Positions 21,368 through 23,519 of a stretch of DNA of 64,000 bases are shown one piece after another. The translations under genes were made by a program, and so were the position numbers. Source of the DNA: Rhodanobacter fulvus Jip2 (GTDB lineage: Bacteria > Pseudomonadota > Gammaproteobacteria > Xanthomonadales > Rhodanobacteraceae); the NCBI RefSeq assembly GCF_000264315.1, contig NZ_AJXU01000001.1:1-64000 (forward strand), in the 5' to 3' direction. Below the pieces are notes generated by a model that searched no databases, had not been told where the DNA came from, and worked only from the letters and a program-made list of their open reading frames with translations. The first letter of the stretch is position 1; each line of letters begins with the position of its first letter.

Positions 21368-22672
21368 TTAACGCTGCATAGATGATTGCGCCACCGGCCC
21401 ATCCGCCGTCTGCACCGACGGCGTGGGCGCCTGCACATGTTGCGTTCCCGCTGCCTGCAGCTGGGGCCAGCCAGTACTGCTCTGCGGCAGCGGCGTGTTG
21501 ATGCCGCTCACGACGTCCACATCGGCAAACCGACGCAGCGGCGAGCGAATATCGCCTTGCACGGCAAAGGCGCGGGAGGCGTCATCGCTCAGGACTACCT
21601 GGTCGATCCGCTCGAGCCCTTCGCGTCGTGCTGCCAGCGCCAACACGCCAGCGAGGTTGTAGCTGCGCAAATCCGTCGTGCGGCCCTGCGCCTGGTCGAG
21701 CGCGCCAACGCCCGCAAGCGCTTGTTGGTACATCGAGTGACCGGGGTGCTGGTAGTTATCGAGAGTGAGCGCGGTGAGGGCGGATTGCTGCAGGCTAATC
21801 TGCTGGATCGTCCCATGCAGAATTGCACGACTCGTGTTGGTACCAACTACGCCGTCATCGGGCAGTCCATGATCGCGCTGGAACGCTTTGACGGCGTTGA
21901 GCGTCGCTGGACCGAAATTGCCATCGGAACCTAACGGGTTACCATGATCGTCCGCGTAACCCAACTGGCGGAGATGGCTCTGCAGGTTTCTTACCTCAGC
22001 GCCGTGGTCTCCCTTGCGCGTAATTCCACCGACGCCCAGAGTAGCGAGTTGGTCTGCGCTTAGCGTTCCGTTCTTGACGCTATCGATGAGCTCCTGAGTG
22101 ATCGTATTTTTCCAGCTTTTCGACTGCGTCACTCGCGCATCGGCGCCGTTCGGCCCACCGTTGATGATGACGCCCGCATGTTTGGCATCCTCGCGGTACT
22201 TCTCGGGGACTTTGTCCTTCCAGTATGCAATGGCGAGTCTTGCCGCCATCTCCGGCTCGGCAGCCTGCTCTGGATTGTTCTCGAGATCGACGCCAAACTT
22301 GTTGCCGAAGTCGGTGTAGTTGTCCCGGCCGGTGTACTGAAAGTAGCCGCGACCGTGAAACTTGTAACCATCTCCGGGCATGTTGTTGCCCAAGTCGGCG
22401 CGACCCTGGTAAAGCACTTTTGCCACTTCTTTCGGGTCTTGGCTGTCGACTGCTGCCTGGATCTCTTCACGTGTGTATCGCACGGCGGCGCTCCGCACCG
22501 CTCCGATGACATTGTCGACTGAGGAATACCCCAAACGTTCGTGCATCGTGCGGAAACCATCGGTTTCGACCGAAGCGTTTCCCATGATGTTGGCAAGCTC
22601 CGCAGGCGATTCAATACCCGCTTCGACGCAGCGTTTGAACAGAAGGGCGGAACTGCGATTGAAATGCGGCAT
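21368..22672 (-). CDS. GH19 peptidoglycan hydrolase with C-terminal XVIPCD-like domain (candidate T4SS effector)
   Basis: The 434-residue protein has three parts. Residues 1-215 are a GH19 lysozyme/chitinase-like domain with candidate catalytic Glu36 (SVETDGF) and Glu45 (MHERLGYS), and the signature GRGYFQYTGRDNY at 108-119. Residues about 218-285 are a PG_binding_1 domain (DHGAEVRNLQSHLRQLGY, DGNFGPATLNAVKAFQ). Residues about 300-434 resemble the XVIPCD found in Xanthomonadales type IV secretion effectors: NYQHPGHSMYQQAL, LRSYNLAGVLALAARREGL, IDQVVLSD, and a Gln/Ser-rich tail. There is no Sec signal, as expected for a T4SS substrate. AAGGAG precedes the ATG. It is likely a killing toxin acting on the wall of rival bacteria. 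The candidate immunity gene ends 30 bases upstream. Confidence 0.85.
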   Translation of the reverse strand: MPHFNRSSALLFKRCVEAGIESPAELANIMGNASVETDGFRTMHERLGYSSVDNVIGAVRSAAVRYTREEIQAAVDSQDPKEVAKVLYQGRADLGNNMPGDGYKFHGRGYFQYTGRDNYTDFGNKFGVDLENNPEQAAEPEMAARLAIAYWKDKVPEKYREDAKHAGVIINGGPNGADARVTQSKSWKNTITQELIDSVKNGTLSADQLATLGVGGITRKGDHGAEVRNLQSHLRQLGYADDHGNPLGSDGNFGPATLNAVKAFQRDHGLPDDGVVGTNTSRAILHGTIQQISLQQSALTALTLDNYQHPGHSMYQQALAGVGALDQAQGRTTDLRSYNLAGVLALAARREGLERIDQVVLSDDASRAFAVQGDIRSPLRRFADVDVVSGINTPLPQSSTGWPQLQAAGTQHVQAPTPSVQTADGPVAQSSMQR

Positions 22673-22702
22673 GGCGAACTCCTTTCACTCGATTGCCTTC
22701 CC

Positions 22703-23341
22703 CTACTTTTGCAGCACCTCAGCGATGGCTTCCGGATCGACCGAGGACATCGGCGTCCACGCGAAGTCCATCGGGTAGATCGCACTGACATGGCGGACGC
22801 CTGTGCCGCTGTCGGGGTTCGACGCGGTGGCGCGTTGCAAATACCAGGTGCTCTTTTTCTTCGACCACGCAAAATAGAACGTGGTGTCGCCCTTATCTTT
22901 CTGGTTGACGTACACGATGCTGGCCGGCGCCACGGTCAGGTTGTCGTTCAATGACATCGCAGGGGCGTTGCGCGCGACATCGTTGTATGTGCAATCCACG
23001 GCTTTTTTGCTGTGATCGACTTCGACCAACTCGTGGTTTTCCCGGCGCAAGGCGATCAATTCGCAGGGATTATCGTCGAAGTCGTAGTCGCTCTTTTCGC
23101 TGACTTGGTGCCGGACAATGATCACGGCGCCTGAAACCCCATCGCCATATGAGTTGGCTGGCTTGTAGGCAAGCAGCGTGTCCGCAGCGGCGACAAACGC
23201 ACGCACATCCCGTGGCAAATCACCAGTGACGTCCGGCGGGACGTGGTTCTTGATGTCCTGGCTCGTGCTGTCGACGGCAGCCGCGGTGACCGCTTGGGCC
23301 ATAAGCAGGGCAAAAGGGAGGATGAACGTCCTGAATCTCAT
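22703..23341 (-). CDS. exported protein, candidate immunity partner of the GH19 effector
   Basis: The 212-residue product starts at an ATG preceded by AGGAG and has a Sec signal peptide (MRFRTFILPFALLMAQAVTAAA). The mature part has no family I can name. It contains an acidic SDYDFDDNPCELIAL segment, two cysteines (CEL and CTYNDVA) that could form a disulfide, and a beta-rich C-terminal half ending SSVDPEAIAEVLQK. Location is the main clue: it is directly upstream of, and in one operon with, a peptidoglycan hydrolase that would be toxic in the producer's periplasm. The order immunity then effector is common for X-Tfi/X-Tfe pairs. I see no lipobox. Confidence 0.65.
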   Translation of the reverse strand: MRFRTFILPFALLMAQAVTAAAVDSTSQDIKNHVPPDVTGDLPRDVRAFVAAADTLLAYKPANSYGDGVSGAVIIVRHQVSEKSDYDFDDNPCELIALRRENHELVEVDHSKKAVDCTYNDVARNAPAMSLNDNLTVAPASIVYVNQKDKGDTTFYFAWSKKKSTWYLQRATASNPDSGTGVRHVSAIYPMDFAWTPMSSVDPEAIAEVLQK

Positions 23342-23519
23342 CGTGCAGCTCCTGTCCATGCGGTGCTCACTCGCAAGCGCAAGATATTATCACCGGTCCT
23401 TTTCCGCACGTGAGCGCTTTCGGGAGTCGGCGTAGGCAAAGGTGAGAGGGCGTTCCATCGGGCGCTGTCGAATGCATCCGGACTCTTGTGAAACGCAGGT
23501 AGTGGCCTAATCGAGCGCT

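Follow-up and report, generated by a model that had tools for sequence, protein, structure and literature searches.

Positions 21,368 to 23,341 of a contig from the soil bacterium Rhodanobacter fulvus Jip2 (NZ_AJXU01000001.1, positions 1 to 64,000; this whole 64,000-nucleotide stretch is referred to as the window) raise the question of what a hydrolase gene without an export signal is doing directly behind a gene for an exported protein of no recognised family. Both open reading frames (ORFs) lie on the reverse strand, and they agree with an initial annotation of the locus in coordinates, strand, length (434 and 212 residues) and the 30 bp that separate them. Sequence comparison leads us to propose, with high confidence, that they form an antibacterial effector/immunity pair of a Xanthomonadales-type type IV secretion system (T4SS; X-T4SS), in which the longer product would be the effector (X-Tfe) and the shorter one is very probably its cognate inhibitor (X-Tfi).

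The effector gene and its exported partner

The candidate X-Tfe gene (21368..22672, minus strand) encodes a GH19 hydrolase domain of the endolysin/TfcB type (residues 1–215; 22028..22672), a PG_binding_1 domain (residues 216–300; 21773..22027) and an XVIPCD, the domain of VirD4 recognition and secretion (21461..21760), followed by a tail. The initial annotation had read the same domains from the letters alone, and the Pfam profiles bear it out: the C-terminal domain matches X-Tfes_XVIPCD (PF20410) at 117.8 bits (E = 3.7e-34, cut-off 24.9; E = 1.4e-34 in the genome-wide scan), and PG_binding_1 reaches 65.9 bits. The Pfam score for GH19 (PF00182) falls just under its cut-off (24.6 versus 25.5 bits), yet residues 1–217 alone match PDB entry 7r6s with E = 6e-34 and the endolysin 4ok7 with E = 8e-23. 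The whole protein matches the same two entries with E = 1.4e-41 (in two stretches) and 3e-22, plant chitinases being weaker matches near 1e-5 (best 1.2e-5). By these comparisons the GH19 domain is secure despite its sub-threshold profile score. Residues E36 and E45 align with the acidic pair of solved GH19 endolysins, which we take to be catalytic there. In the Xanthomonas citri effector XAC2609 the active-site residue is E48 (consulted text of PMC10933484), and 7r6s is TfcB, a Stenotrophomonas T4SS effector (consulted text of PMC11253643). An N-terminal signal peptide was not seen by inspection, as the initial annotation had stated. With its C-terminal XVIPCD, the protein is a fresh example of an already known kind of X-Tfe.

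The candidate X-Tfi gene (22703..23341, minus strand) lies upstream of the effector gene on the same strand, an order that the consulted text of PMC6536674 gives as usual for X-Tfis. Each gene has a presumptive ribosome-binding site, AGGAG, 6–7 nt before its ATG (23349..23353 for the exported protein and 22679..22683 for the effector, both minus strand). By inspection the product begins with a Sec-type signal that lacks the cysteine of a lipobox; the Sec signal was also part of the initial reading. Residues 1–42 (23216..23341, minus strand) comprise the signal peptide and a linker, and residues 43–212 (22706..23215, minus strand) a domain delimited by profiles, with the motif VDCxYN at positions 115–120 kept in close relatives. 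Two segments, residues 78–93 and 115–131, are rich in positions invariant among close relatives and are, by this conservation, candidates for contact loops. Neither Pfam nor NCBIfam (E up to 1) nor a sequence search of the PDB (E up to 10) returned any match, in keeping with the family having been called unrecognised. X-T4SS effectors can be found through their XVIPCD, while the predicted inhibitor, with its relatives, is a sequence class for which Pfam and NCBIfam hold no model.

Linkage and class-wise pairing of predicted inhibitor and hydrolase

Matches to the exported protein were found in 21 of 233 genomes of the family, its own included (one of them, G064, by an N-terminal segment only), and the inhibitor profile detected the domain in 30 of 398 genomes of the order, again with its own. 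Among 398 genomes drawn from the phylum, the profile gave, besides its own genome, a single weak case outside the order (locus L112 in G722, same class, other order), where GH19 and XVIPCD were absent within 1.5 kb.

Within fetched flanks of roughly 1.5 kb, a same-strand GH19 domain accompanies 25 of the 35 inhibitor-domain genes, the window included and one (L010) counted through a fragment, and four more adjoin an XVIPCD-type effector, giving 29/35 in all. This set excludes two loci matched by an N-terminal segment only (L024, L030) and a broken homologue (L031), and its 35 genes represent 34 places, because a single place in G104 has two of them, L019 and L029. By comparison, 139 XVIPCD matches in about 93 Mb (hand-summed over 21 genomes) imply that a 3.5-kb locus taken at random would contain one in about 0.5% of cases. 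Starting from the effector, an inhibitor domain lies upstream at 27 of the 30 best effector-like loci (window included), and one of the three exceptions, L061, lacks GH19 as well. Both genes appear to be under purifying selection, with dN/dS of 0.06–0.20 where computable.

In the most distant homologues of the inhibitor, VDCxYN gives way to another central motif, VPCxxCGGxxGDP (with variants); these homologues precede GH19 effectors of another subclass, with a TfcB-like helix. Alignment of the two inhibitor classes with hhalign gave 162 collinear columns (probability 97.6, E = 3e-12), and a narrower profile from the window side still matched the CxxCGG class with E = 6e-11. Judged by these alignments, the window inhibitor belongs to an unnamed superfamily of at least two distantly related sequence classes.

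Across 37 inhibitor/GH19 pairs, VDC-class inhibitors went with GNASVET-like GH19 domains (13 pairs) and CxxCGG-class inhibitors with MAQ-type ones (24 pairs), with zero crossings. These pairs exclude inhibitor genes without a near-complete neighbouring GH19; the class was called by regular expressions in 35 of them and by eye in L011 and L102. Motif variants occur in both classes, L026 and L043 being without the full CxxCGG and L020, L021 and L029 without the full VDCxYN. Inhibitor and GH19 distances were correlated at r = 0.96 in 36 pairs (L102, a truncated inhibitor match, excluded), p values for all such correlations coming from Mantel permutations that ignore phylogeny. For the 26 pairs that have a full XVIPCD, inhibitor and GH19 correlate at 0.92 with XVIPCD partialled out, and inhibitor and XVIPCD at 0.16 with GH19 partialled out. 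Within the classes, inhibitor and GH19 were correlated at 0.94 for VDC (12 pairs) and 0.73 for CxxCGG (23 pairs), sets from which L026 is also missing, as it was missed by the regular expression. Taken together, inhibitor class goes with catalytic subclass across different C-termini. The two classes matching two GH19 subclasses make the specificity of inhibitor for hydrolase testable by swapping pairs.

Several observations weigh against this reading of the pair. Six of the 35 inhibitor genes lack a neighbouring effector domain, and the four beside XVIPCD effectors have no GH19; the inhibitor profile was, moreover, iterated on the same fetched loci that were later counted. Synonymous divergence (dS) is near or beyond saturation, and 3 of 15 inhibitor pairs gave no dN/dS value. 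Within the CxxCGG class, the inhibitor correlates alike with GH19 (0.69) and with XVIPCD (0.66; 20 pairs), and the class-wise pairing may have arisen simply because linked genes descend together. The consulted text of PMC6536674 also gives periplasmic-target X-Tfis a signal peptide with a lipobox in almost all cases, and the exported protein, without a lipobox, is unlike most of them.

The within-class correlations indicate that the contrast between GH19 and XVIPCD comes from the split between classes. We therefore rejected the idea that, inside each class, the inhibitor follows GH19 in preference to XVIPCD; the six VDC-class pairs with an XVIPCD (0.92 with GH19, p = 0.10; 0.78 with XVIPCD, p = 0.02) are too few to bear on it.

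The secretion system, the proposed mechanism and its rivals

A T4SS, as presupposed by the initial annotation, is present in the genome (3.88 Mb in 130 contigs, 99.94% complete); with the strong XVIPCD match, this removes two of the outcomes that the annotation had named as refuting its reading. By Pfam, contig C14 carries, in order, VirB8, VirB9, VirB10, VirB11, an SLT-type VirB1, VirB2, VirB3, VirB4 and VirB6, and contig C68 carries VirD4; VirB5 can be assigned by position only, to a 332-aa frame between VirB4 and VirB6 that has no Pfam match. A 187-aa lipoprotein-like frame before VirB8 contains TEIPL and matches TcpQ, presumably an N0-like domain, below threshold (18.7 bits, cut-off 27). 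According to the consulted text of PMC6536674, an X-T4SS is marked in VirB7 by the motif [T/S]EIPL together with an N0 domain, in VirB8 by extensions rich in A/Q/G/P, and in VirB10 by the motif P[S/T]Lh[E/D/Q]RRh, and the system is defined as chromosomal, with all twelve subunits, a VirB7 with N0 and XVIPCD effectors. Features of this kind were seen by eye in the C14 VirB8 and VirB10 frames, and X-T4SSs are tabulated there for several Rhodanobacter, C01 included (PMC6536674). By these sequence marks, the genome carries a VirB/VirD4 system with X-T4SS hallmarks, known here from a 130-contig draft.

Three proteins of the genome match PF20410: the window effector, one of M15-peptidase type and a PG-binding protein encoded where the vir operon ends. 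The pair had been described as orphan, and it does sit away from the vir locus. There is nothing unusual in this, since in X. citri the X-Tfe genes are scattered with a single exception, according to the consulted text of PMC6536674.

In the mechanism we propose, VirD4 would bind the XVIPCD, and the T4SS would pass the effector on contact into a neighbouring Gram-negative cell, where PG_binding_1 would hold it on the wall and the muramidase-like GH19 domain would cut the glycan strands. The exported protein would sit in the producer's periplasm and block the GH19 active site, chiefly against self-poisoning by the cell's own effector; both the active-site block and self-protection are proposed by analogy with XAC2609/XAC2610 (consulted text of PMC10933484).

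The exported protein might instead be a chaperone or an unrelated envelope protein, with the true inhibitor encoded elsewhere, and the extra LprI-type genes found at the same loci in some relatives leave room for this. We regard it as improbable: linkage in both directions and the class-wise pairing with GH19 speak for the exported protein, no other exported candidate was seen by eye directly upstream among ORFs of 80 or more residues, and a secretion chaperone, working in the cytosol, would have no Sec signal. Less probable still is a prophage endolysin remnant, or a housekeeping autolysin with an acquired XVIPCD-like tail. Such an origin would suit a GH19 domain whose closest PDB relatives are TfcB and endolysins, as well as the 16 records of GH19 proteins on other bacteria's plasmids, but it has to contend with an XVIPCD at 118 bits, a paired exported gene and a T4SS with X-T4SS hallmarks in the genome. 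Prophage origin was rejected, as a search of phage records, run with the exported protein and not with the effector, gave no match, and scans of the window for tRNA genes and Rfam families were negative. Equally hard to credit is T4SS delivery of a chitinase directed against fungi. GH19 is best known from chitinases and plant enzymes do appear among the weaker matches, but the TfcB and endolysin matches of the GH19 part are far stronger and a PG_binding_1 domain is present; a linked periplasmic inhibitor, furthermore, implies that the hazard is to the producer's own wall.

Other candidate effector loci were seen in the same genome. On the window's own contig, C1, near 102.6–104.1 kb (L008, 6587–8062), the M15-type peptidase with XVIPCD is a second X-Tfe, and its inhibitor candidate, a 145-aa protein exported by eye and without a Pfam family, lies downstream, not upstream. 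The end of the vir operon on C14 (L006, 15327–17913) encodes a DUF4189 protein, a lipoprotein-like 269-aa protein without a family, and the XVIPCD effector, which carries PG_binding_1 and an N-terminal domain unmatched in Pfam. Beside VirD4 on C68 (L063, 19–3804) lie genes for an LprI-type protein, an effector with a divergent XVIPCD-like tag, a protein of 204 aa that resembles a lipoprotein, and one of 286 aa whose lipase/hydrolase matches are all sub-threshold; these probably represent further effector/inhibitor pairs.

The divergent XVIPCD-like domain, C-terminal and with a Gln-rich tail, occupies 1513–1878 in frame 1510–2871 of the C68 locus and recurs at C80:790–1125. It is not reported by PF20410 in the C68 protein, and hhalign relates it to XVIPCD with a probability of 98.3 (E = 1.8e-14). 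It was found in 39 of 233 family genomes, 36 of which are also PF20410-positive (Fisher p = 3e-18, genus not controlled), a co-occurrence at the level of whole genomes, drawn from genome lists. By eye, it sits on GH19-like and lipase-like proteins, and it may represent another class of address tag for VirD4.

Gene history and known systems

Residues 4–39 of the exported protein resemble the starts of LprI-type genes at the X-Tfe loci of two relatives (70% and 65% identity over 37 aligned positions); those genes are LprI by Pfam (PF07007), and the LprI domain itself was not found by Pfam in the exported protein. In DNA comparison with one relative, a metagenome-assembled genome (MAG; L069), window positions 23450–23226 align with the upstream region and start of its LprI gene (68.9%), and positions 23210–21354 with its inhibitor-effector pair (75.8%), the gap between the two blocks being about 700 bp in the MAG and about 15 bp in the window. 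Given these blocks, the exported protein is best read as an in-frame fusion by which the inhibitor domain gained a signal peptide of LprI type, and we infer that its export signal came from an adjacent LprI-type inhibitor gene. Near relatives (Dyella and the MAG) have lipobox-like signals (LGC and FAC), in whose place the window protein has its LprI-like start, with no cysteine there. Rhodanobacter sp. L36 has a different fusion, in which the whole LprI domain is kept. In that strain (L074, 2252–5546), a run of five ORFs, exported by eye, sits upstream of an effector remnant matching about residues 7–66; three have LprI, one of them being an LprI-inhibitor fusion, and on sequence grounds the run would be an immunity array.

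Composition and other scans of the window add a little to this history. All 645-bp tiles below 0.58 GC lie at about 21750–23500, covering the GH19, PG-binding and inhibitor parts, and the XVIPCD end has a GC of 0.66. This dip weakly supports import; it is partly a family trait, because third-position GC of GH19 is below that of XVIPCD in 7 of the 8 listed VDC-class loci with XVIPCD, the window's own included. The XVIPCD part of the effector is 79% identical to that of a second effector at the MAG locus, which is consistent with exchange of XVIPCD modules. A promoter/terminator scan yielded one promoter-like site, on the opposite strand, versus 0.8 expected, and decides nothing; repeats were limited to short imperfect matches.

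In three genomes (G170, G067, G116) the effector is interrupted or mostly gone and the inhibitor frame is open, although sequencing errors could partly account for the interruptions; the G170 inhibitor has a dN/dS of 0.13 versus G160. Two others (G106, G117) showed no effector domain within 1.5 kb, and nothing in about 10 kb there matched the window effector. Outside these bacteria, the Rhizobium megaplasmid pMK-2 (CP041205.1) carries one gene like the exported protein, with 39% identity. No PF20410 match was found in 730 kb of CP041205.1, where the controls were also silent, the same model having given matches in other scans. Around the inhibitor-like gene (81772–93536; L110, 3923–15687) lie three DUF4189 genes within about 5 kb and, by eye, one LprI-like frame within 7 kb. 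DUF4189 and LprI proteins also adjoin X-Tfes in the genomes examined here, and another DUF4189 gene farther off on pMK-2 means that these neighbours may be native to the plasmid.

As a tentative extension, and one we think doubtful, inhibitor and GH19 might form a travelling cassette on different T4SS tags (XVIPCD and the divergent class that PF20410 misses), with the inhibitor also spreading alone, as in the effector-less strains and the Rhizobium plasmid, and perhaps acting as prey resistance to bacteria-killing T4SSs. Inhibitors without an effector, together with a copy on a plasmid of another bacterial class, raise the question of whether prey acquire immunity to T4SS killing. Such prey-acquired immunity is under discussion for the type VI secretion system; among the matches listed in our literature search, no paper joined XVIPCD with 'orphan immunity'.

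Inhibitors of the XAC2610 family are beta-propellers that insert a loop into the active site of GH19, and XAC2609 is said to carry a PG-binding domain as well. The XAC2609/XAC2610 pair of X. citri is like the present one in joining a GH19 and XVIPCD effector to an exported inhibitor (consulted text of PMC10933484), and differs from it in genomic position, the window pair sitting away from the vir locus. That the inhibitor type might not be that of XAC2610 had been suspected in the initial annotation, and this stands at the level of sequence: XAC2610 (4QTQ) was not among the PDB matches up to E = 10, either of the exported protein (phmmer) or of the family and sister-class profiles, assuming 4QTQ to be present in the searched copy, and the window inhibitor has no lipobox. 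Direct membership of the XAC2610 family by sequence was rejected on this result; kinship of fold lies outside it. LprI (PF07007) lysozyme-inhibitor-like proteins share with the window inhibitor a similar signal peptide and first residues, and not the LprI domain. TfcB of Stenotrophomonas maltophilia, the best PDB match of the effector, likewise combines GH19 and XVIPCD; its GH19 helix has the MAQ..HES form seen in CxxCGG-paired effectors, whereas the window effector has the MGNASVET form. The CxxCGG-type X-Tfi-like proteins of the same bacterial family are collinear with the window inhibitor family and occupy the same place before GH19-XVIPCD effectors, differing in their motif (VPCxxCGGxxGDP, not VDCxYN) and in the GH19 subclass of their partners.

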